Positions 1 through 44,500 of a DNA stretch of 64,000 nucleotides are shown here, piece by piece (the first letter of the stretch is position 1; each line of letters begins with the position of its first letter). The translations under genes were made by a program, and so were the position numbers. Under the pieces are notes generated by a model. The model did not search any database. It had not been told where the DNA came from and saw only the letters and a list, made by a program, of their open reading frames with translations. This stretch comes from Quercus robur (taxonomy: Eukaryota; Streptophyta; Magnoliopsida; Fagales; Fagaceae), in the NCBI RefSeq assembly GCF_932294415.1, contig NC_065535.1, forward strand, positions 82,357,862 to 82,421,861, read 5' to 3'.

Positions 1-1188
1 TTCCCTGAAGTAATCCATAACTTCCCTTTCCTCAAAAATCCAATCCCCTGCCCCATTTTTAACTGACCAAATATGGTTCCTTTTCCTTCTGGCTAGGGCT
101 GATATGTGATAGAAGGAAGTATTACGGTCACCCATCACCAACCAGTTTATTCTAGCTTTTAACGCCCAAAGCTCTGTTTCTTGGCCATTCACCATTTCCA
201 AATCCTTAAGAAGCTAAGACTCTAATAGAATCAGAGAGGGAGATGGACTATTAGCCATAGCCCTTTGAACTCCATCTAATCGAGCCATGATTCTCCTTTT
301 CTTTGCAAATATATTCCCGAAATGATTCTTATTCCACAACTTAGCCTCCTTTGCAAAATTTTCTATATTCTCCGGAAGCTCCATAGACCTCTTCCACGCC
401 TGACTAACTACACTCGGAAAGGAAGGGTCAGAGAGCCAGAAGCTTTGAAAACGGAACGATCTATTAAGATAATTCATCCTCCTAGGCAGAGTTTCAAGAA
501 GAACTAGGCAGTGATCCGAGTGGCATCTCGTGAGATGGGAAATTCTAGCTTCCGGATACAGAAGACACCAGCTCGGATTCATGAAGTATCTATCAATCCT
601 TTCTTGGATAAAATAGTTGGCATCTCTCTTATTAGTCCAAGTAAACCTTGGCCCATTGAACCCTAAATCCACCATATTACACCTATCTAAGCACTCCTTG
701 AATAGAAGGGATCTATTAATGCTTACTGGTCTACCCCCTAACTTATCCTCATTAACTAAGGGTTCATTAAAATCTCCAGCTATCACCCAGGGTTTATTAT
801 GCATTTCTGCCACTTTGGACAGATTATTCCATAAAATACTTCTCTCCTCACTCCTCGGGCTAGCATAAATTGCAGTAAAGAACCAGGATAGATTAGAGGA
901 TAGTACCTTGACCTCAACATGGATCTCTTGTTCTGTAGTAGCCAGCTGGTCAATCTCCACCATGTCTGAATTCCACAGCAACCACAAGCCTCCAGTACGG
1001 CCAATTGTCTCCGTAATAATTGCACCATCGAATGGAAGTCTGTCAGTGATCTCTCTTGCTCTTTCTCCCCCAAGACGAGTTTCCATTATTACCATTATTG
1101 CCGGATTGTGCATCCCTACCAAGTCCCTTACATGTTTCTGAAAATTGGGCTTCAGAACCCCTCTACTATTCCAAACTACAAAATTCAT
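1..1188 (-). pseudogene. LINE ORF2 start: endonuclease domain, partial
   Basis: This is the N-terminal part of the LINE polyprotein. I chose the ATG at 1186-1188 because the protein then opens MNFVVWNSRGV, the normal start of plant L1 endonucleases. The upstream extension in this frame only overlaps ORF1. The apurinic endonuclease signatures are visible: ETRLGG, the GDFNEP motif, and SDHCLVLL near the domain end. An in-frame TAG at 214-216 interrupts the ORF. Beyond it the same frame resumes with LKDLEMVNGQETELWALKAR and continues to WLVMGDRNTSFYH, the linker that precedes the reverse transcriptase. The frame runs off the left edge of the window. Confidence 0.92.
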
Positions 1189-1219
1189 AATAAAATGAAA
1201 AAAGGGGAGAAGGAACATA

Positions 1220-3043
1220 TTAAGCAGAAGCAGTAGCTCCACCGCCATTCTCGAAATCCATCCCAATTTCGCCATCACCGGAACCCCCCTGCTCACAAGG
1301 CTTGCTGTTGTGGGTCCGCTGATCGACTGGCTCAGCTTGAAGAACGGAGTCAGCAGAACCTCCACCATCATTTTCGAAATCCATTCTAGCTTCACCCTTG
1401 CCGGAATCCCCCTGCACTCTATCCTTGCTGTTATGAGTCCGCCGATCAACTGGATCGGCTTGAACATCGGAATCATCTTGAAGGCTTGGCTCGGCTGGGT
1501 GGCGACTCGGTCTTCCACTAACATCACCGACCTTGCTGCCTCTGGGACGGTCTGAGTGAACACAGGAAGATTCTCCTCCTCCGGTAGCCACACGCCGGTT
1601 CGACACCACATCATGCTCTCCACTCTTCTTTCCCTTAGCTTTAATCCCCACTTCCTTTTGAACCGGAGCTGTAAACTGAAATTTGTTCTCATGGCTGCCC
1701 TTACTGCCATCAGAGGTGCGCCAACTCCAATTCTGAGAGTTAAGAGTTTCTGGCTGCATTTGAGTGAACGTAGCCCTACTCCTAGCCAAACCCTTTTTTC
1801 CCCTTACTGATGGGCTCATTTGCAAAATAGGCCCCTGCCTACTTGGACTAGTCCCCACACTAAATGGGCCCAATTGCTTGTCCTTCAAATCGTGTTTCGG
1901 AACACCAAACTTCTACGGGTTTGTCTCCTTGGCCCAGCCCATCGAAATGGGCTTCGTTGCAGTTCCTTGCCCACTAGCCTGACGCTCCTCTGCTCTCCCC
2001 GAACCTGAGAGTCCGTCCAAACCAGCAGCATTCCTAACGCCACGCTGTCCATTTTTCCTGCGTGTCACTAACATCCAAGGCCCGTACGAGTCGTTAGCCT
2101 TTGTCGCTCCACTACCCTCTGACATGCCACCCCCAATGACTGTACTATCCGTGTCATGCACCATACGTGACCCAACAGAATCACCATGCTCATCGTTGCC
2201 TCCTCTCACCGGCGATGAAGAAGACCGAATGATGTGTGGACAGACCTCTTTCTTGTGACCTACCCTACCACAAGCAAAACACAACTTCTGGATTCCCTCA
2301 TAGACCACCGGCTGCTCGAATCTGCCTATAAGCACTGTATTAATAAGTGGTTTGTTCATATCCACTTGAATGCATAATCTCGCGTATTTTCCTCTCACTT
2401 CCATGGCGGTTTGAGCATCAATCCGTAAAACTTTGCCAATAGCTTCTCCAATATGTTTAAGCACCTCCGTTTCGTATAGTTCCAATGGCAGCGCATGTAA
2501 CCAAACCCACACCGCTATCGAAGAGACATTGGCTGCTTCTGGTTTGAAGAAAGGCTCCCAAGGTCTGATCGATAAAAATTGCCCTCCGATGAACCAAGGA
2601 CCTTTCTCTAGGACTGAATCCATATCCTCTTTCAAGGTGAATCTAACAGAATAAAAATCGCACCCAAGATCGACACAGTCCAGTCTTCCGATTGGTTTCC
2701 AAAGGTACTGAAGCTTGCTTTGGAGAAAGTTAAACCCAACCGTTTTCCCGTACAGCTTAATAATCAGTGTTTGAGACCACGGTTTTCGAATTCGCAGCTT
2801 CGTTTCTCTGGAGAGCTTCACCGCAGCTAAACCGTCCCTAAGATCAGTAACCTCATCATCTGACTCGGCGTCATCATCCATCAAATCCATAAAGTCAAAA
2901 GCTTTAGCAAAAGCTCCTGGGATTTCTCCGACTAGTTTATCTCTGAAGGACGTTTTCGGCGACCCCCACACATTCTGATGTCTCTGCTCTTGGCTGCCTT
3001 TACTTGGACCTTCATTGAACTCAGCATGGTGGACATCTTTCAC
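1220..3043 (-). pseudogene. LINE ORF1 (DUF4283, zinc knuckle), broken by one stop
   Basis: This is the RNA-binding ORF1 protein of a plant L1 element. In such elements ORF1 packages the element RNA. From the ATG at 3041-3043 the frame is open to a TAG at 1913-1915, then continues in the same frame to a TAA at 1220-1222, so a single nonsense change splits an ORF of about 607 codons. Residues around 70-230 match the DUF4283 pattern, including a GPWFIGGQFLSIRPWEP segment. It is followed by a CCHC knuckle (CFACGRVGHKKEVCPH). The part past the stop is hydrophilic and low in complexity, with a short internal repeat around RTHNSK. ORF2 starts 31 bases downstream. Confidence 0.9.
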
Positions 3044-3994
3044 CTTCTTTTTGCTTCACAATAACTCAGCTTCCTCCTCTCTAGAGAGAACCCGGTGTTT
3101 AGACATTTCGCTATTCCAAATCTAATATATAAAATATTATGATTTTTATAAAAATATTCCAACAGAGATGTAAGATCTTTTCCTTTTAAAAGTTCCAAAT
3201 TTGAAAAAATAGTATTAAGAAAAAGACAGCCATACCTTCTCAAAAGAAAAAGACAGCTATTAAATAATCACAAGATGATGGACGGTTAACCAAATATATA
3301 AATAATAAAGCTTTTCTCATTTAATTAATTTAGCTAAGGCATTACGTTTATTACCAATAGACTAATAACAGATATATATGCTCAAACTGTAGTTTAGTTA
3401 AAGCAGTGGGCAAAAAACAATTTGAATGATATTCTTGAGAAATCCATATACTAATAAAACATACCATTTGTTCCAAGATTTTTCTTATTATCTAGATTTG
3501 TGAATTCTTTTTTTAGATTTTTTTTATTGTCTAGATTTTTGAATTGTACAATGTTTGTCTAAAGGTTTTTCTTGATATTCTTATGACATCTAAATAAAAG
3601 GGTTGAATAGAATAAGTTTTTCATTTTTGAAATTTCATGGGTCAGCTTGTAAATTTTTTTTTGGGGGGGTGGGGTGGGGGGGGAGGAGTATATAATTTTA
3701 GGGACAAAAGTAAAATTTTATGTGTAAATATATACACACACACATTTTCCAAAGGCTAGGGAGGCATAGCCACCCTTAGCCTCAACTTAGTTTCATCTCT
3801 ACAGAGAATTTTGAGCTTCACTATTTATGGGAACCAATATTTATTGGGTCTTGTTAATAGCTTAAGGTATTTGTTAATGAACCATTTAGAAAGTTTTTAA
3901 TACCATTTTCATAAGAAATATAAAGATCTTAAAAAAATTTAGTTAATTTGTTTCTTTTCCTATAAAAAGTTATTTAGGAAAGAGATAAACAGGA
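3044..3994. other. Gene-free AT-rich stretch with possible TE remnant
   Basis: No gene is seen. It holds possible 5' sequence of the LINE, AT-rich DNA, a G-rich run at 3663-3683 and a CA microsatellite near 3735. A fragment around 3754-3800 resembles a decayed hAT terminus. Confidence 0.6.
3663..3683 (+). other. Potential G-quadruplex tract
   Basis: Runs of seven, four and eight guanines are separated by single thymines on the plus strand, in otherwise AT-rich DNA. This satisfies the usual sequence rule for an intramolecular G-quadruplex with very short loops. Nothing shows that it has a function. Confidence 0.6.
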
Positions 3995-4002
3995 CACTTG
4001 CT

Positions 4003-5037
4003 TAGGAATGGCAACGGGTCGGGTTCAGGCTGGGTTTTTCCATACCCGGACCCGACCCGCGGGCCAAGACCTACAGCCCAGACCCGGCCCGTTTACTAAA
4101 CGGGTTTTTTTTTGGGGCCGGACCCACCCCACCGGGCTCCGCGGGCCCCGTCTAGCTAGGCCAAATTTGGGCCTAATTCTCGGACCAAATCATGGCCCAA
4201 TCACAATCAATTTTTTTTAAGGCCCAGATGCCAAAAATAGGCCCAACCAGCTTAAAATATGAAGAAAAAAAAAAATCTCACACCAAATCAACTTGTGTAA
4301 GATCTTGAGTAAAAGTATATGCATTATGCCATAGTGTAAGATTTTTTTTCTTTTTTTTTTTTTTGTAAAAAAAAGAGGAAACAAATCAGTTCTTTTTTCT
4401 TTTTCTTTTTTTCTCTTCTTTGTTAATACAGATTTTTCACCATAAAAAAATAAAAAATACAAATCACAATCCCAAACATAAACATAAACAGAAACACAAA
4501 TCAGCTTGTTTTTTTGGCTCTTCTCTGTTAATACATATTTTTTACTAAAAGAAAAAAAACACAAATCACAAACAGAAAACAAAATCAATAGATCCCTATT
4601 TCGATTCTTTCGTATCCGATACCGTCGTCGATGTCGCCGAGCAACATACGCGCCGCGACGACGTGCGCAGTTGAGGCTAGGTTGCATAGATCGTCAGAGG
4701 AAGACATCACTGTTTTGATTGACACAGATGACTAGATGAGTCTTACACTCAGCCAACAAGGAAAAACATCCACTGGGCTTTGAAGGATCTAGTGCGATGG
4801 GCTGTGCCTAAAGAGTGAGAGTGAGGCCGTGAGGGTGGGTGAGAGTGAGTCCGTGAGGGGGGCGACAACCATGCGTGAGACGGAGCGTGACTGCGTGAGG
4901 TGTGAGGCCGTGTGCTGTGTAAGGTAGTGAGGGACGAGGGTGAGGACTAAAAAGGTGTGAGCAGAAATGAGGGAGTGAGGGTGAGGAGGCTGGAGGCGTG
5001 AGCTGAAAAATGAGGGAGTTAGGGTTAGTGTTTATAG

Positions 5038-6203: not shown

Positions 6204-8243
6204 TAGTTCAAACACAATTTGGAATGAATATCAAAGCAATTAGATCTAATAATGCCATAGAATTTAAAATGCTTGATTTTTATAATTCTCGTGGCATTAT
6301 ACACCAAAACAATTGTGTTTACACCCCTCAACAAAATTCTGTTGTTGAGAGAAAACACCAACATATACTCTTTATAGTTAGAGCCTTACATTTACAATCA
6401 AACCTTCCATTACAGTTCTGGGGTGATTGCGTCCCTACTGTTGTCCATCTAATTAATAGGTTGTCATCTCCTCATTTACATAATAAAACTCCTTATGAAC
6501 TACTTTTTCATAAACCTTGAACCTATGATCATTTAAGGGTCTTTGGTTGCTTATGCTTTGCTTCTACCATAGCTCAAAATAGACACAAATTTTCTCCAAG
6601 GACTAGAAAATGTGTTTTCATTGGTTATCCCTTTAATGTCAAAGACTAAAAATTGTTTGATCTTCAATCTCGTACTGTTTTCCTCTCTAGAGATGTCACA
6701 TTTCATAAAACAGTTTTCCCTTACCAAACTCATTCATATATTCCATCTTCTTCCTCCCAATTGTCTTTGCCTTCCACTCCTCCAAATCCACCTATGTTTC
6801 TTAATGAGAATTCTCCTATTTCTCATTCTCATAATCCAGATTTTGTTAACCATTCATCAAGTTCATCTTGGAAGCTAAAAATATTTGGACCTTAACTCCA
6901 TTACCTTCCAACAAGAAGCCCATTAGATGTAAATGGGTTTATAGAATGGGTTTATAGGGTTAAGTACAAGTATGATGGTTTAGTGGAGAGGTACAATGCC
7001 AGGTTATTGGCTAAGGGCTTCACTCAGAAGGAAGGGGTAGATTACACTGAGACTTTCTCACTTGTGGCCAAGATGGTTTCTATCAAATGCTTGTTAGATG
7101 TGGTTGATGTGAAAGGTTGGTTTCTTAGCCAACTTGATGTCAACAATGCATTTCTGCATGGTGACTTATCAGAGGAGGTTTACATGGCTCTTCCACCAAG
7201 TTTTCACAGTAAGGGGGAGCTGGTGTGTAAGCTAAATAAATCACTTTATGGTCTTAAGCAGGCTTCTAGACAATGGTTTGCAAAGTTTTCAACTACTCTA
7301 GTTTAGCTGGGGTTCACACAATCAAAGGCAAACTATTCACTCTTTACTAGGCAACAAGATCATTCATTCATGGTTCTTTTGGTCTATGTGGATGATGTCC
7401 TAATAGCTAGCAACAATCAAGAAGAAGTGAATTAGTTTAAGGTGTTATTAGATCATAAATTCAAGCTCAAAGACTTGGGTGGGTTTAAATTCTTTATTGG
7501 GTTGGAGGTTGCCAGATTAGACAAGGGAATTGCCCTTTGCCGGAGAAAGTACACCTTAGAGGTCTTGAATGATGTTGGTCTTCTTGGTTGTAAACCTGCA
7601 TAGACACCTATGGAGTAAAACCTCAAACTCAGCAAGTATGAAAGGAAAGAGAGCCTCATTTGGATGCAATGCATAAGACTTTGCAGTACTTGAAGAATGA
7701 ACTAGGCAAGGGACTTCTGTTCTATTCTCATCTAGTTCAAAACTATACATCAAAGGCTTTGCAAATTCTGATTGGGCTTCATGCCCAAATACCAAAAGAT
7801 CTGTGACAGGTTATAGCATTTTTATGGGGGATTCACTAGTTTCTTGGAAGTCCAAGAAGCAATCAATAGTTTCCGGGTCTTCAGCAAAGGCAAAATATAG
7901 GTCCATGACTATAGTTACATGTGAAATAGTCTGGATCTTGTATCGTCTTAATGAATTTGGAGTAGACCACAAAAGAGAAGCATTATTATTTTGTGACAGT
8001 CAATCTGCTTTACATATTGGTTCAAACCCTGTGTTTCATGAGAGAACTAAACATACATAAATTGACTATCATGTGGTCAAGGATAAGGTTCTAGCAAGTG
8101 TTATCAAATTGATTAATGTGATGACTTAATGTCAACTAGCAGATTTGCTAACAAAGGCACTAAACTTCAATCAATTCTCTAATCTTCTTTCTAAAATGGG
8201 AATGGTGAACATACATACACCTACAGTTCAACTTGAGGGGGAG
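6204..8243 (+). pseudogene. Copia pol remnant (integrase, RT, RNase H)
   Basis: The order integrase, reverse transcriptase, RNase H is that of Ty1/Copia. Integrase core signatures lie at 6210-6520 ([25 protein letters not shown], which have Asp/Asn and Gly/Ser changes from the usual pattern). The reverse transcriptase starts near 6985 with [19 protein letters not shown] and [12 protein letters not shown], and the catalytic YVDDVLIA is at about 7384-7407 after a stop. The RNase H part at 7800-8060 has VSWKSKKQ and CDSQSALHI. Stops interrupt it repeatedly, including after TTLV near 7305, at 7433-7435 and at 8058. The protein is non-functional. Confidence 0.92.
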
Positions 8244-13995: not shown

Positions 13996-14657
13996 TGTGG
14001 GGGGTAAAAAACCAGTAGGCCCATGTCGATGTCTATATTGGGCCAAAGGCCCAGCCCAAGGGAAAAATCCCTCCTCGGTCGCGGGGAGGAAAAGCCCTTC
14101 CTCGGCCATGGGGAGAGTCCTCCTTGGCACAGTGTAGCCGAGGATGGAGGAGGTAACCTGCCATTAGTAGTGACACTCCCTATCACCTCACGGAGAGAGA
14201 AAAGTACTAAAACAGAAAAGGACAACGAAAGTGTTTAAAGGAAAGGCTATCATTATTGCATTCAGTGTCTTGTGTCTGACATGGCCATACTTCTCTGTCC
14301 TTACAACCACTCCCAACAACTGGAGGAAATGGCTGATGGGACAAGTACCTACCCTAGGGACCCCATTCAGGAGGAAGAAAACTACTATAAAAGGAGAGTA
14401 AAGAGAAGCAGAAAGGGCGGGGCGAAGACCCCCCAACACACAAAAGGGACCAGAAAGGGCTCCCGGAATTGTATCGAGGATCAATTCTCCCAGATGAACT
14501 CAATCCACCTCATCCTATCAAGTAAAACACCATGATAACTGTTGTCCATACACCAAAGCCTAGCTCTTTAGGCCACTCTCTACAAATTCATTGTACCGAG
14601 CTTGCTGGTCTAAAATCTCATGCATCCTGAGCCAGATCAGAAAAATCGGACCCTACA
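13996..14657 (+). mobile_element. Solo LTR with 5-bp TSD
   Basis: This 662-bp sequence starts TGTGGGGGGT and ends ACCCTACA, giving imperfect terminal inverted repeats of the TG..CA type. An exact duplication, AAGAC, lies at 13991-13995 and 14658-14662. A TATA-like box (CTATAAAAGGAG) near 14386 and the GC-rich 5' third fit an LTR promoter. No internal retroelement sequence is present, so this is a product of LTR-LTR recombination. The TG..CA ends and length would suit Gypsy or Copia. I cannot assign a lineage. Confidence 0.88.
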
Positions 14658-14662
14658 AAGAC

Positions 14663-16640
14663 AAAAGTTGTTACTATTCCCTAATTGTTTGAAACTAGTT
14701 TTAAGAATTTTGACCATAGTGAATGCTCAATTTTTTTTTTTTTTTTTTTTTGAGTTTTGAGATTCTTTTTAACCTACAAATATATATGTAATTTATGTAC
14801 ATGATGGCAGGAAAAGTGCTTTTATATATATATTTTAAAAGTTTCAAAATGTTAATTTAAGAGATAGACTGTAAAAAAGTCCATAACAACTCACTCATGA
14901 GTCATGCTCACATCATAAAATGAGGAATACAAAATTTTTACTTAGAGACTATTTCCAAATAAATGCGACATAAATTGCGGGGTTGCCATGTTTGGTCACG
15001 TGTAGTAGACATTGATGGATGATTTTGTATTTTAGTACCTTATCCTTGGAATAATCAACTATTTTTTCATGTGGTATATGGGCTTCCAAGCTTTCAGTGG
15101 CTCTTTCTCAAAAAAAAAAAAAAAAAAAAGCTTTCAGTGGCTCACCCCATTTAAAGGAGTTTTGCGGGCTAAAAGCTTAGCAACAAACCTTTCAGTGACA
15201 CCATCAACTGTTCATAATTGATGCAATCAAAGATTCAAGAAGCTCCCAATATAATCTTTTTATGAAAAAAATCTTGTATTGCGTGTAAACAATAGCTGCC
15301 ATATTTGTGTGTTTTATTAGGTGTGTGTGACTGTGAGTGCAAATTAATGTGCATGTCTGTGTGTTTATGAGAGAGGTGCGTACGTGTGGGATGAGCATGC
15401 GTGTGTGTGTGTGTCTAAGATAGAGAGAGAGGTCATCAAAAGCTGAATGCTACCATGCAGTCTATGCTAGTGAGGATTAGGTTTACTTACTTTCATTAGC
15501 TAAGATCTAGTGAGAATAGGGGAATCAAAGTCCTTTAAACAGGAAAGCAAAGAATAAATATTGGGCCGAAAGAAAATGTAGTTCACTATCATGTGCTCAT
15601 AATTCATTATAGGGGAATCATGATGAGAGAGCTATGCCATTGCCATACCTCCACAGCAAACAAAAACAATAACTTTGGCAGAGGCTTTGGCTATCCTAGT
15701 CAATAGACTACAAGAAAGATAAAACCACTACTCTCAATAGGTCACAAGGGACCACAACAAAGAAATGGAACCTGAAGTTCTGTCAGTAACTGTACCAATA
15801 ATGTGAAAAATATGTCGTATTTCCTCTTGTATTCTAAGAAAAAGAAATTGAAACTTACATTTGGACTTGAGGTTGTACTATTACTATATTCTTTGTTGAG
15901 GGCTTTCTTATTAGATGGATTGAGGTCGACTCCTATGGTACACCTTTTAAGAACGCTAGACATTCATATTCTAGCCAAGGGTAGCATAGTCCTGGCCTTG
16001 TATCTTTTTCCCATCTAGTCGAATTTTTATTTTTGAGTGTTTCCTTTATGACAAAGAAATGCTCTTGATTCTCAATGAAATTTGTTTGTTCATTGCCTCC
16101 TGGTCATGAAATAATTATCTCATATATCCCGGTTATCTTCTTTCTTCCAAACATATGGATTTCACAATGTATGAGATCTTCAAGTTAGTGAGAAAGATGA
16201 CGTATTAGATGCACAAGATACCTTCTCCTAATCATGGAGTCGCACTTTTCATAAGTTTTAAGCACTTAGCTATAAGTACGTTCTAATACAACAGATAACT
16301 TACACTGCCAGACTCGCATTTCTCCATTTTAGTTCATAAAAGCTGATTCTAGTTAATGATGATTGTATCAACTCAATAAAATAGAAGCCCATAGTTCAGG
16401 AAATAAAAAGATGTAGGAAGCTGTGACATTTATATCATGGCCATGAAGTTACAATAACTCCATGTGCATATATGAGGAAAGAACTCTTTTACAAATATAA
16501 ACTTATTATTAGAGTACATGTCCTGTTTATAATTTGGCCAATCAGTTCAATTCATTCATGCATTTATGTGTTAGCCAGGGTGGTTGTAGGGTTTGAACAA
16601 ATCATGAGCCGTGGTCGATAAAAGTCTTGCCCTCGTGTCC
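14663..16640. other. Gene-free stretch
   Basis: The DNA is AT-rich with a GT microsatellite near 15398-15414 and one micro-insertion at 15104-15127. ORFs here are short and unrecognised. Confidence 0.55.
15104..15127 (+). repeat. Micro-insertion with 16-bp TSD
   Basis: TTTCTC followed by poly(A) is flanked by exact copies of AAGCTTTCAGTGGCTC at 15088-15103 and 15128-15143. It is the clearest example of the class in this window. Confidence 0.85.
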
Positions 16641-16641
16641 T

Positions 16642-16652
16642 TTATATATATG
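16642..16652 (+). promoter_or_regulatory. TATA box of the microRNA transcript
   Basis: TTATATATATGG is followed about 30 bases later by a purine-rich start region (near 16675-16690). It lies about 190 bases upstream of the hairpin, as expected for a Pol II pri-miRNA promoter. Confidence 0.6.
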
Positions 16653-16831
16653 GTTAAAACTTCCCTTCAACCTCAAGCAAAGCATATAGAGAGGAAAAGA
16701 GTGAAGCAACTCTTTTTTAGACTTTAGTACTAGCTAGTAACTAGGGATCCTTTCTTTTAATTGTACACCATTGCCTTCCCTCTTCCTATTCATCCTCCGT
16801 TCATTCTTCATTAACATAATGCGAAAAAAGT

Positions 16832-16913
16832 AGAAATGGGGGTTCCTTTCAGCCCAAAACATTCTGCCGAACTTCTGGCTGGCTGTTTTGGACTGAAGGG
16901 AGCTCCTACTTCT
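16832..16913 (+). ncRNA. MIR319: miR319-like microRNA precursor hairpin
   Basis: The 3' arm contains TTGGACTGAAGGGAGCTCCT at 16888-16907, which matches miR319-family mature sequences from memory. miR319 guides cleavage of TCP transcription factor mRNAs in leaf and flower development, and the related miR159 targets MYB mRNAs. The 5' arm at 16832-16861 pairs with 16884-16913. I count almost continuous pairing with G-U pairs and mismatches only at 16853/16892 (C-A) and 16836/16909 (A-C). A 22-base loop joins the arms. For a 21-nt guide at 16887-16907, the star with 2-nt 3' overhangs would be 16840-16860. Canonical MIR319 precursors are long (about 150-200 nt) with a second paired block near the loop, and this one is short. 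Expression and target are not shown. Confidence 0.8.
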
Positions 16914-19544
16914 TCTTTCATTCAGTCTCTCAGCTTCAAAGGTTAGAATTATTGATGGTATCTCTATCTTTAGTATATGTTTGATCTCTTCAAGAAAATT
17001 TTATGCATATAGGTTTCATTTACTTTGAAATCAAAATGAAATCCATAAGTTGTGTTTTCCTTTGGTAGATGAAATCTATAGGTTGAGTAATGATATTGTC
17101 ACACTTCATAATATTTATGACAACATTACAAGTTTTGGACTAGTGTTTATCTCAGTAACCTTGGTTTTTTGTCTCTTGTTCCAAAGATCATCATCGAAAC
17201 AATTATTGATTCTTCACATGGTGTTGAACACTAAACAATTAGGACAGCCAATTTTGTGTTGTTCAGAAGGCCCATTAGGCATAACAAGGCAACTGCAAAA
17301 ATGGTACTTCTCCTTTGCAAAAATCAAAACACAATGTTTTTTGCTTCGAAAGGTAACTTCCTTTCAAGCTTCCTCTTTTCCAATGAAACCTCTAATACTA
17401 TATATCTTTGTTCCACTTTATCTTTCAGATTAAAAGTGCCAAGCACTTTGATTATACAATCAGCATGACTTCTGGATCATCTTTTTGAAGCATGAAAGAC
17501 AAAAATGCAATAGTTTTTTAACTCATATATATTGAATTAGCTTTTTCATTATGTTCTACTTTGTGAAGCATGAAAGACAAAAATGCAGAAACAGATTGAA
17601 CAATCATTCTTATATATTGAATTGCTTCCAAAAAAATATGTGGATGCAGATAGTTAGTTATATTCACTTCCGACATTCCAATCTACAAGCTACCGTGAAA
17701 GTCATGTTTTATGTACGATTAACAAGAATTATAGAGAACAAATTATTTGCACAAGTCAGAATCATAGACATTCATTCTAAGCGTCTTTTAACTAAGCCCC
17801 ATTGGACTTGTTATGCTTCTAGACACATTGCTGAGCCAATTGAGCCTTCAGTTCTTCAGTGTCTGCTGTACTTGAGGTAAACATCTTATAGCCTAGCATG
17901 GTCCTTGTTTAAAGGTCCAATTGTGCATGGATAATTAGCTTTTCATTATATTCTACTTTATTTTCCAATTTTTTAATTGATAATAGGATTCCAAACAATG
18001 CACCATTAATGTATTGATGCTTCATCCCAGCAAATGGATTGCCCCATGCGTATGCTTAATTAACGCGTTTTTGGTCCATTCGTCGCTGTCATGGCTATGT
18101 GTATAACGGTGAAGTGCTTATTAGATTAAACAAGTAAAATCAACTAGTCAGGCTCAGGAGACAATTTGATAAGGACATAGGCTCCACAGATGAAAGAAGC
18201 CAAATTTGGGTTCAATTTGATATTGATGTGCAGCACTGTTTACATTGCTTCACAATATCAGAGACAACCTGGATATGAGAATGACAGACAAATTAGACTT
18301 GCAATGTTACTCAACCTATGAACTTGTACTAAAATTTCACACTAATTAATATGATCATCATTTTACCTTTTTATTCTAAAGCAAAATTACCACAATCATG
18401 CAGAGAATTACTTTAAAAAGAGCCTTGCTATATCAATTGTAATTGGTCCTACTAAAAATTTTTAAACACAATAAGATGTTGCAGAAAGTCCAACCTTTTG
18501 CAAAGATGTTGCTTATGGGTCCTAAAACAAACTTTTAGTAATATGAAAAGCATACACATCTAAATTCCTAACCATTACTTGCATCTGCAGAAAAACCAAG
18601 CTATCTAAACAAGCATCCAAATAATCCCAATCTGCTTAAATTCTCTCAGGACAACTAATCAAACCAAATCCTAGGATTGAATTTGGGCTTAATTTGATGG
18701 TATGAGCTTCCATTTTCTTTTAGGCTTGCCTTCCTCTTTGCATGCCAGCCAAACCCCATGACAGGCCCCTTGCTGAATCTTCATTACATGCTTATGTACA
18801 AGACCTAAGCAAATTTTACATATCTCATCTGATAAAGAATCAAACAATGTATTGCCACTTGCTACACTCAGTTCTGCCAGCCATTAAAGTCAAAGCATAC
18901 ATTTGAATTCTACGTGGGTTCTTTATGTGTTGTACTCAAGTTTCCTAATTAAATTCAACTTCATGACTGCATTGACCAATGCGCAAACAATGCTATCTTT
19001 CTCATGGACAATTAAAAATTCAACCATATGATTTATTGACCAACAAAATTATATGGTTAAATTCAATTGGAAAATGTAAGATACAACACTTAAAAAATTG
19101 TACCTAAGTTTTACCCATACTAGTAAATTGGCCTTTGAACCTAACCAAGCTTTTGCTGGCTGAAATCAGAGCAGTGAAGCATACTCCCTCAACCTCAGCC
19201 ATGGAAGTTGAGCTCTTACTCAAAATGGACTAGGCTAGAAAGCCAGCTCAAATGTGGAACTTTGATTCATGAAAACTTAAGCCCCCAAAAAAAAAACGCC
19301 ATTTTCTAATCAAATATATATCACTTATTTATTCAGATGGAAAAGATGACAAGAACTTGGTTCACACAATTGTAGTATCACCCTAAGGACATAATGCCCC
19401 TGCATTATGTCCAGTAAAATGGATAAACAAATTATATATATTAAGAGCCAAGTGACACATAATACATATACAATCACTCTTAATTGAGTATTAAAAAAAA
19501 TGAATCTAGCTGCTTTAGACAGAAATTCTCTCAAGGTTTTTATA
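16914..19544. other. Gene-free region downstream of the microRNA
   Basis: It may include the pri-miRNA 3' part. ORFs at 17050-17433 and 17551-17880 are unrecognised and have the AT-rich composition of non-coding DNA. A direct repeat of about 20 bp (GAAGCATGAAAGACAAAAAT-like) occurs near 17487 and 17564. Confidence 0.5.
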
Positions 19545-20640
19545 TTATGCACAGGGAAGATAATCTTCCTTCAAGTGAACAGAAGATAGGCATGTGACTT
19601 GCTGTTGTTGTGTCATTTGTACTGCTTGTTGAATCTGCTGCTGCTGTTGTTGTTGTGCCTGCTGCTGGAAATTGCATTTGACAAGTGAGCATGATCTTCT
19701 GGTGTCACCAGCTAGAGGAATCACAGGTAAGTTGTCACAGTTGCAGATTTCTATCATTGAGCCATCTGGGTCATGGAAGAAAAGCTGATCAACGTAAATT
19801 CCACCCTCTTCCACCCTGCTTTTCACGTACTCTATCTTCATGTCCTTTAACTTTTTCTCTACGGTTGCCATGCTCTCACACTGCCAACACATCCTAATTT
19901 AGTAATTTCAAGCAAATAGACATGCATAAAAACAAACACACAATCGAGAAAGAGAGAGATATACTTGGAAAGAAATGTGGTTGTGCTTGGGATTAATGTG
20001 GCCAATCTTGGGCATGCTATCAGGGTCTTCAGATTGAAGTAGGTGTATGCCGATACCATAATTGAATAGCCTATTCAGAATCAACACCAAAGAACAAAAA
20101 AATTAATAAAGGAAAAGATTAATATTAATATCATTCAGTGAAATTAAATAAAATTTAAAAAGAAAAAGGTTTTCAAGAAAGTTGAATTTTTTTTTTTTTT
20201 GCTGAGACAAGAAAGTTGAATTGTAGTACATCAAAAATATTCTTTGACCAATATCATATATACTTGATATGGTGACATACAAAACATCTCAACAACTTCG
20301 AAGGACTCTTTTGTATTCATGGTTTTCAAGAATGTTGAATTGAATTGCACCATGCACCATATCAAACAAATCTCCATCAACAAAAACACAAAATCTTTTA
20401 GTTCTATTAATGTTCTTAAGATTCTTGAAACTGATCAGATTATTTATCCAAACAAAGAAAAAAGGATTCTTGGAACTGAGATTGTATGTATGTATACCAT
20501 GCACCCTCAAAGTCAAAAGAACCAGGCCTTCTGATAGGAAAGAAACCAAGAACATTCAGGTAGAAATCGAGAGACTCCTCTAATGATCTGCACAAAATCG
20601 AGATGTGATTCAAGGACTTAAGGCGCAGTGGATTTTCCAT
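19545..20640 (-). CDS. Glyoxalase-I-like VOC domain protein (3 exons)
   Basis: This is a 194-aa protein of the vicinal oxygen chelate fold, closest by memory to the plant GLYI4/GLYI7 group. These are usually described as lactoylglutathione lyase-like, but their methylglyoxal activity is uncertain. Exons are 20640-20498, 20070-19965 and 19880-19545, with GT-AG introns. The protein is continuous across both junctions (FDFEGA-W-LFNYG and HISFQ-CESM). Likely metal ligands are in place: H12 (NHI), H57 (GIHLL), H79 (NHISF) and E127 (MIEICNC). The last 40 residues are unusual: a Gln-rich tract at 155-177 with a run of seven Gln, then a short tail. There is no organelle signal, so it is probably cytosolic. 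Confidence 0.93.
20189..20207 (-). repeat. Micro-insertion with 15-bp TSD, intronic
   Basis: A T run followed by GCTGAGA is flanked by exact copies of CAAGAAAGTTGAATT at 20174-20188 and 20208-20222, inside intron 1 of the VOC gene. Confidence 0.8.
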
Positions 20641-41500: not shown

Positions 41501-44500
41501 CAAAGTTACATATGTAGGATATGGTAACAGTGTTCTGCAAAGAAATGAATTGATAAACTGCCTTTTCATCTTGATATTGTTTCAGATAATTGTTGAAAAT
41601 CTCTTTCTTATTTGTTCTTTGTTTCCGATGCAGCATCTTGGTAAATATTTTAAGCAATCTGCCAAAGCTTTGGAACAGCAGGTTGCTAGGGAAGCAAGAT
41701 TTTATGGTGCTTTAATCAGGTGAGTCTGTCTCAGTTACTTTATTAAACTAGTCACTAACCCATGTAATGCACCAAAAAATTACTGAAAATGAAATCTAAT
41801 GAATGCTTGTGTTATTTTTATCTTTTCTATTGAATATGATCTTTTTTTTAAAGTAATATGCTAAGCAATTATGCAAGATACCATGTAATTTTTTTTCTTT
41901 TTTGATAAGTAACATAAAAATTTTATTAAAAAACACACAGCCTAGTATATAGGAAATGTACAAAAAGGCAAAACCATCAAGAAACCAAATTACAAAGATC
42001 TAGCAACTCAGGAAGGGAAAAACAAGAAAAAGATGGTAAAACAAGACACCATTCGAGAAGAGTAAAAAAGAAGAAAGACTTAAGCTCAGGTGCTTCAGGT
42101 GGAGGTCAACATGTAGATTGGCTCTACTTAGGCTCCGTGGGTGCTTCAGGTGGGGTTTTATTGATGTGGGACAACAGGGTTGTGGATAAGGTGGAGGAAG
42201 CGGTGGGCCGTTTCTCTGTCTCTTGTAAATTCAAAAATGTGGTGGATCATTTTGTTTGGGCTTTCACTGGTGTTTATGGTCCCAATAGTGATAGAGATAG
42301 AAGTTGCTTATGGGAGGAGTTAGCTGGCCTACGTAGTTGGTGGGATGTGCCTTGGTGTGTGGGAGGTGATTTTAATGTGGTGCAGTTTCCTTCTGAACGT
42401 TCGAGTTCTGCAAATTTCACTTCAACTATGCATTGGTTTTCAGCTTTTATCTCTGAGCAAAGCCTTATTGACTTGCCTTTGGTTAGGGGGAGTTTCACGT
42501 CTAATTCTAGAGAGGTTGCTTCAAGATCTAGATTGGATAGGTTTCTAGTGTCACAAATTGGGAGGAGAAATTTCCATCTATTTGTCAATGCCGTCTATCT
42601 AGGTTGCTTTTGGATCATTTTCCTATCCTTCTTGAGGGTGGGAATTTACATGGAGGCAACAAACCTTTTAGGTTTGAGAACATGTGGTTAAAGGATGAGG
42701 GATTCTTGGAAAGGGTGAGTTCATGGTGGGAGTCCTATTATTTCCAAGGAACTCTTAGTTTTGCTTTGGCTAACAAACTGAAGTTGTTGAAATTGGATTT
42801 GAAAAGATGGAATGCGGAGGAGTTCGGCAATATAGGTTTGAGGTTGCAGAATTTATGGAAGGAGTTTAATGCGTTGGAAGTTATCAAAGATGACTAGGTT
42901 CTTTCAGCGGAGGAAAATAGGGATAAGGATCGAATTCCTGGAGAGCTAGAAAAAACAACTATATTGGAAGAAATTTGCTGGAGGCAGAAATTTAGGGCTC
43001 TTTTTCTTAGAGAGGGAGATAGGAACACAAAATTTTTTCATCGTATTGCAAATTCGCATAGAAAATGCAATACTATCGATAGGCTTATGGTGGATAGAGA
43101 GTTAGCTACGGATTAGGGGATCATTGAGGGGTGCATTACTCATTTCTATAGGCAGTTGTACACGGAGAATGAGGTCCACAGACCTCTTTTGAATGAGGTT
43201 GTTTTTTCTAGAATTTCTAAGGAAGATGCCACTTGGTTGGACAAACCTTTTGATGAGGAAGAAGTATTTGGAGTGGTCCAAGATTTCAATGGTGATAAAG
43301 CGCTAAAAGACAAATATTAGTGAATGCTACTTGTAGCAACTGAAGCTCACAATATAAGTATATTACATGAGGCCAAAAGTCTCTTTAAGTTCCCCTTGGC
43401 CTTATAGTCCCTAACATACACACGTCATTAACTATTATTGCTTTTGCAATATGAAGCAACTCCTTCACATTGAAAAAAATACCCTGGTAGTGAAATCGAT
43501 CCATTTACACATGGTCAAGTAATAAAAATGGCCTAAGTATCTTAGAGGTCCTTTTGAGGTAAACCTTAGGAGCATTGCTGCATTGAAGGGGCAATGGAGC
43601 CCTCTGGCATTGGCTTGTATGGAGAAATGAGGGACTTTTTAACTGTATGAGGGGCATTGGCAACCCTTAGATTTTTCTTGTATTAGATTTTGCGTGTTTT
43701 TGTATTGAATTTAATTTCAGAGGATTAATTCGAAATTATTTGAATTGAACCTCACAAATTAGGGAAAAAGGAAAAGAAAAGAAAAAAAAGAATAACATTA
43801 CATCATTGTAGCTGATTAATATACAAATAAACTACCAATTTAACATGATAAATCACTAATAGTAATTTAGAAAGCAAAAATTAAAGTTGTCTTACCTATT
43901 TAACCTAAAACTATTCATATTCTAAAGTTGTCAAACACCTATTAACAAATAGCTATTAATATAAAATATTAATCTTGTTGCATGAATTGAAAAGTCTCAA
44001 ACACATAGCTTCAATAGCTTCACAAAACAGAAAATTAGCAAAAGTTAGAGCATTTGAAGCTTATGCTTCGCCTGGTTGGGACTTGTGAGAATAATGAATT
44101 GCCATTGTTTGGGTATAATATAGGATGGACCTGAATTTTTTTAGAAGAAGTTAAGTCAATTCATTCAGTAATCAAATCAAACATCAGTACACCATATATG
44201 GTGCGTCGGTTAGAGGGCTTGGTGAGGATAAAATGTGCTGGAACTCTGTTAGAGAGAAGGACTTCACGGTTAGGGATTATTACAATCTCTTAGTGGGCCC
44301 TAATGACTATTGTTTTCCTTGGAAAAGCATTTGGAAGCAGAAGATTCCTTCTCGATTAGCTTTCTTTGTTTGGACTGTTGCTTTAGGGAAATGCTTAACG
44401 ATTGACAATTTATGAAAAAGGAAGGTTTGGATATTAGACTGGTGCTAAATGTGTAAGTGTAATGGGGGAATCGGTTGATCATCTTTTTCTTCATTGTCTG

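Follow-up and report, generated by a model that had tools for sequence, protein, structure and literature searches.

A short-type MIR319 hairpin, probably a working microRNA gene of a catalogued family, in the genome of Quercus robur

A 64,000-nucleotide stretch of the Quercus robur genome (hereafter, the window) very likely contains a plant MIR319 gene that is single-copy and of the short kind (type 2, resembling grape vvi-MIR319e), whose 21-nt miR319 would act against TCP mRNAs. Judged from its sequence, the locus is a well-formed short-type MIR319 and an ordinary member of a catalogued family, and our combined analyses suggest that the hairpin is probably a working microRNA gene. The features assigned to the locus are collected in Table 1.

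Table 1. Features of the MIR319 locus and its upstream region (positions of the window)
Feature	Positions	Strand	Basis
Short MIR319 precursor hairpin	16831..16914	+	Full-length RF03483 match and fold
Predicted mature 21-nt miR319	16887..16907	+	Identical to vvi-miR319e; phase borrowed from grape
Predicted miRNA*	16840..16860	+	2-nt 3' overhangs relative to 16887-16907; inferred from pair map and duplex
Lower stem, 5' side	16823..16839	+	Mismatches at 16836 and 16831, internal loop at 16826; pair map
Lower stem, 3' side	16908..16923	+	Pair map
Short upper stem and terminal loop	16861..16886	+	Without second duplex; most divergent from the family consensus
TATA-like run tttatatatatgg, candidate core promoter	16641..16653	+	Sequence only

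The 19-base miR319 core occurs at 16888-16906 without a mismatch and nowhere else in the window, where a second copy was absent at up to three mismatches (0.01 expected). The 20-base miR319-type sequence that a sequence-only reading of this DNA had placed at 16888-16907 is indeed present. Folding of 16800-16950 with RNAfold, as that reading had proposed, gave a stable hairpin of -53 kcal/mol (z = -5.7), which none of 200 shuffled sequences equaled in stability, and among 5326 sampled 96-nt windows of the plus strand the hairpin had the lowest energy. The minimum-energy fold has 34 pairs within 16832-16913, in agreement with the earlier description of a short foldback paired over about 30 positions. 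When eight stem pairs were tested in three sequence contexts, seven had a probability of at least 0.985, and the weakest, 16827:16918, had 0.73–0.77. In the pair map, 16837-16852 was paired with 16893-16908 in an unbroken helix, which a C/A mismatch separates from the helix formed by 16854-16861 and 16884-16891, and the lower pairs of the stem were 16832-16835/16910-16913 and 16827-16830/16915-16918. The 22-base loop drawn previously at 16862-16883 is not open: the minimum-energy fold places six more pairs there, forming a short helix at the apex that is closed by a 6-nt loop at 16870-16875.

The miRNA at 16887-16907 and its partner at 16840-16860 form a clean duplex with 2-nt overhangs, and 26 nt lie between the end of the predicted star (16860) and the start of the 21-mer (16887). 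The miR319 mature sequence is located on the 3' arm and paired with the star, the arrangement by which a MIR319 gene is recognized. A chance hairpin was ruled out by the fold statistics and pair probabilities, and shuffling the arms 2000 times never gave a duplex of the observed energy.

Two Rfam models were used for class assignment: RF03483 ("MIR319"), the short precursor model of 92 positions with a gathering score of 54 bits, and RF00638 ("MIR159"), the long MIR159/319 precursor model of 196 positions with a gathering score of 74 bits. The window locus scored 80.6 bits against RF03483 (cut-off 54), covering model positions 1-92 of 92, and 40.9 bits against RF00638, below the 74 needed; at gathering scores it matched RF03483 only. 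Because RF03483 is matched end to end and the RF00638 cut-off is not reached, the locus belongs to a short MIR319 family that is already curated. Agreement with the RF03483 consensus in the cmscan alignment was 20 of 21 positions for the miRNA, 18 of 21 for the star, 14 of 16 for the lower stem and 11 of 26 for the loop, which is 8 nt shorter than that of the model and different in sequence. The minus strand of 16831-16914 folds at -41.2 kcal/mol and also passed RF03483, by 0.2 bit. An antisense gene was considered and rejected: among the five long paralogues of this genome (see below), three passed RF00638 on both strands as well, and we attribute the minus-strand pass to the symmetry of a good hairpin.

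It had also been proposed that the hairpin is young and was born at this place by inverted duplication of target or miRNA sequence. Its arms are highly complementary, and alignment of the locus to its own reverse complement extends over 93 positions at 75% identity, as such an origin would predict. However, this alignment stops at the end of the stem and does not enter the flanks, the entire hairpin fits RF03483, and the window holds no second copy of an arm, only matches of 11–15 nt at chance level. Star, miRNA and lower stem all follow the family consensus, which makes a recent inverted duplication unlikely; given also the fit to Rfam and the lack of further arm copies in the window, we rejected it as scarcely credible.

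To place the locus among its relatives, we searched the whole assembly (786 Mb, 42 contigs). The miR319 core was found at 12 places with at most one mismatch (none for the reversed control), and six of these, the window locus included, carried it exactly. The other five exact-core loci (L003, L004, L005, L007 and L008) are long hairpins with a star–miRNA spacer of 131–172 nt that match RF00638 at 96–157 bits. By the same measure the spacer of the window locus, the only short one among the six, is 30 nt, which confirms that the hairpin is much shorter than the usual miR319 precursor. It shares the mature miRNA core with canonical MIR319/MIR159 (RF00638) but lacks the long stem and the second duplex. 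This loop-proximal duplex between star and miRNA is directly seen to be absent, the 26 nt available leaving no room for it. The RF03483 cut-off was reached by at least one locus, that of the window (on both strands), with scoring applied to 53 of the 229,296 first-look candidates, and the short MIR319 is most likely single-copy in this genome.

BLASTN comparison of the window locus with the long paralogues returned a block of 19–29 nt at the miRNA and an inverted match of the star, all else having E of at least 0.07; nothing of the second conserved duplex turned up in this comparison, and no flanks were common to the window locus and the long paralogues. Among themselves, L004, L005 and L007 share 179–200 nt of hairpin. 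The arms of the window locus were most similar to those of L007 (alignment scores 20/37 and 27/37), and the other eight loci compared scored little below this (17–20 and 22–25). Derivation of the window locus by deletion from a long paralogue now present is not supported by these sequence comparisons.

The remaining six of the 12 places (L009-L014) share one and the same mismatch. Four of them (L011-L014; G000:C39:6074879-6088193) are long RF00638 hairpins with the miR159-like core TTGGAGTGAAGGGAGCTCC, arranged in tandem 4.0–4.7 kb apart. Their long pairwise alignments show 84–94% identity, and their sequences suggest tandem amplification. In L009 and L010, 14 of 19 bases paired in a loose pairing test, yet refolding gave no miRNA hairpin, and neither matched an Rfam family at gathering score. 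On the opposite strand both have open reading frames containing ELPSLQY, which we take to be the peptide that GAMYB genes encode at their miR159 site; for these two proteins Pfam returned no family.

Within the window, a glyoxalase-family coding stretch is located about 3.6 kb downstream of the hairpin at 20500-20640 on the minus strand (PF00903, 25.5 bits versus 20.6), and it is possible that it could serve as a synteny anchor. Pfam matched three of seven window open reading frames, every domain being common in retroelements: an endonuclease/exonuclease/phosphatase domain in two frames and an RVT_2 reverse transcriptase fragment (217-1803, minus strand; 6896-7303, plus strand; 41930-42688, plus strand). 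These three are likely retroelement remnants. A repeat finder reported nothing in 16500-17300. On the plus strand, the 14 sampled 96-nt windows of lowest energy fell in the MIR319 hairpin and in two further places, 3985-4176 and 14017-14172; neither of these two matched an Rfam family at gathering score.

For comparison with previous work we drew on published studies (PMC3118147, PMC2831844, PMC5050227, PMC2822795, PMC8688358, PMC3359237, PMC3937062, PMC5100886, PMC6938847, PMC6246748, PMC11932238, PMC6488645 and PMC6854478). Li et al. (2011; PMC3118147) sorted 277 MIR159/319 genes and candidates (sums over their Table 1) into five types. Their type 2 comprises 6 genes and 13 candidates (19 in all) from 6 species; in it, miR and miR* are no more than 60 nt apart, and neither additional conserved regions nor an elongated stem are present. 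The window locus, with its 26-nt spacer and, from the BLASTN comparison with the long paralogues, no extra conserved sequence or extended stem, agrees with the published description of this type in distance and in the missing second duplex.

Among the closest known counterparts is vvi-MIR319e of Vitis vinifera (chr11:4,317,223-4,317,329). Its 3' arm carries the same 21-mer, UUUGGACUGAAGGGAGCUCCU, and its precursor is listed with 107 nt, whereas the four long relatives vvi-miR319b, c, f and g are listed with 194–231 nt. On the shared 21-mer and the listed precursor lengths, the two loci are putative orthologues. As far as the listed genes go, grape also resembles oak in combining one short MIR319 gene with several long ones. 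In a grape berry study, the abundance of vvi-miR319e summed over 48 libraries was 40,107 TP4M versus 9,157 for the sequence listed for b/c/f/g, and the table of that study gives no 5' (star) sequence for vvi-miR319e. A second berry study gave vvi-miR319e 18.59 in one of two libraries, where other miR319 forms had at most 0.35, and 7.94 in the other, where vv-miR319c (a different sequence in that study) had 20.68. In a third grape paper, the table marks the vvi-miR319e precursor for leaf 454 reads and for RNA-seq of stem and callus, and the text names it for stem only; the leaf library of that paper contained 0 reads of the mature form. According to a 2025 review (PMC11932238), Castro et al. 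picked vvi-miR319e as the "most basic" member by size and structure, and an artificial miRNA on its backbone yielded the expected 21-nt species and silenced GFP, together with 22- and 24-nt species.

These grape data bear on the possibility that the oak locus is a decayed MIR319, that is, a pseudo-miRNA gene whose upper stem was lost by deletion and whose processing has ceased. Against this stand the grape miRNA of identical sequence, which is the more abundant one in berries and whose backbone is diced, as well as the intact stem of the window locus with its high pair probabilities and the family consensus kept in miRNA, star and lower stem. We regard decay as improbable.

In passion fruit, a short miR319 precursor is likewise predicted next to long ones: ped-miR319p has a 76-nt precursor beside others of 171 and 185 nt (PMC6938847). 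However, it differs from the oak locus in being a computational prediction and in its mature sequence, which is shifted by one base. The identical 21-mer has also been reported in bean, jujube and yellow lupine, with the annotation atr-miR319b in lupine. The sequence-only reading held that the hairpin, if expressed, would be structurally novel, a claim that would fall if short MIR319 precursors of this structure were on record as a family. The short form is indeed already known as RF03483, as the type 2 described by Li et al. (2011) and as vvi-MIR319e, the last of which has been studied in grape. Thus, the hairpin picked out by that reading is real but of a catalogued kind, and the locus does not amount to a new source of miR319.

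With regard to function, we infer transcription, dicing and target, and the steps are proposed because established knowledge of miR319 says so. RNA polymerase II would transcribe the locus, and the TATA-like run at 16641-16653 would probably serve as its putative promoter; a TATA-like sequence upstream of the hairpin had been pointed out before. DCL1 would then cut the short hairpin to release the 21-nt miR319 (16887-16907) and the star (16840-16860), and the loaded miR319 would guide cleavage of TCP mRNAs. In yellow lupine, TCP4 is listed as a putative target of the identical 21-mer in a column that mixes prediction and degradome. A search of the oak genome with a TCP-site pattern at up to two mismatches gave 9 sites (1 exact); since the reversed control gave 10, this count is no evidence for targets.

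The order in which such a hairpin would be cut is a separate question. Long miR319 precursors are cut several times from the loop downwards, and ath-miR319a is processed loop-to-base; one survey lists miR319 among 14 families with conserved processing modes, as judged in at least three species. The rule quoted in that survey places an internal bulge or the terminal loop 15–17 from the first cut. In the window hairpin, the internal loop 16826/16919-16920 is 12–14 nt below the duplex, with two 1x1 mismatches between, and the terminal loop starts 9–11 nt above it. The base-side distance is slightly under the 15–17 quoted for base-to-loop cutting, and the base side fits the rule better than the loop side, if imperfectly.

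It is therefore somewhat more probable than not that the hairpin would be processed by two cuts in base-to-loop order, since the lower stem agrees with the consensus and reaches down to an internal loop 12–14 nt from the duplex, and since the terminal loop lies only 9–11 nt above the duplex and departs from it. The single-step processing suggested earlier is plausible from the shape of the hairpin. Alternatively, the same gene might follow a short loop-to-base route from near the apex, like its long relatives, as the conserved mode of the family and the loop-to-base cutting of ath-miR319a would lead one to expect. However, the duplex is closer to the terminal loop than the 15–17 quoted, and the loop is the part least like the consensus; we consider this route rather doubtful. 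Returning to base-to-loop cutting, a limited literature search found no report of miR319e or miR319p together with this order. As a tentative proposal, which we hold at somewhat below an even chance, short MIR319 may be an old lineage maintained beside the long genes, in which loop-to-base processing was dropped for two-cut base-to-loop processing.

Our analysis provides one clean example of a short MIR319, which stands alone next to the five long loci of its genome. The main remaining point of interest is whether dicing of the short MIR319 starts at the base, in contrast to the loop-first description of the family. If so, one conserved miRNA family would have two processing modes within one genome, and the short gene could escape controls that act on the long precursors.
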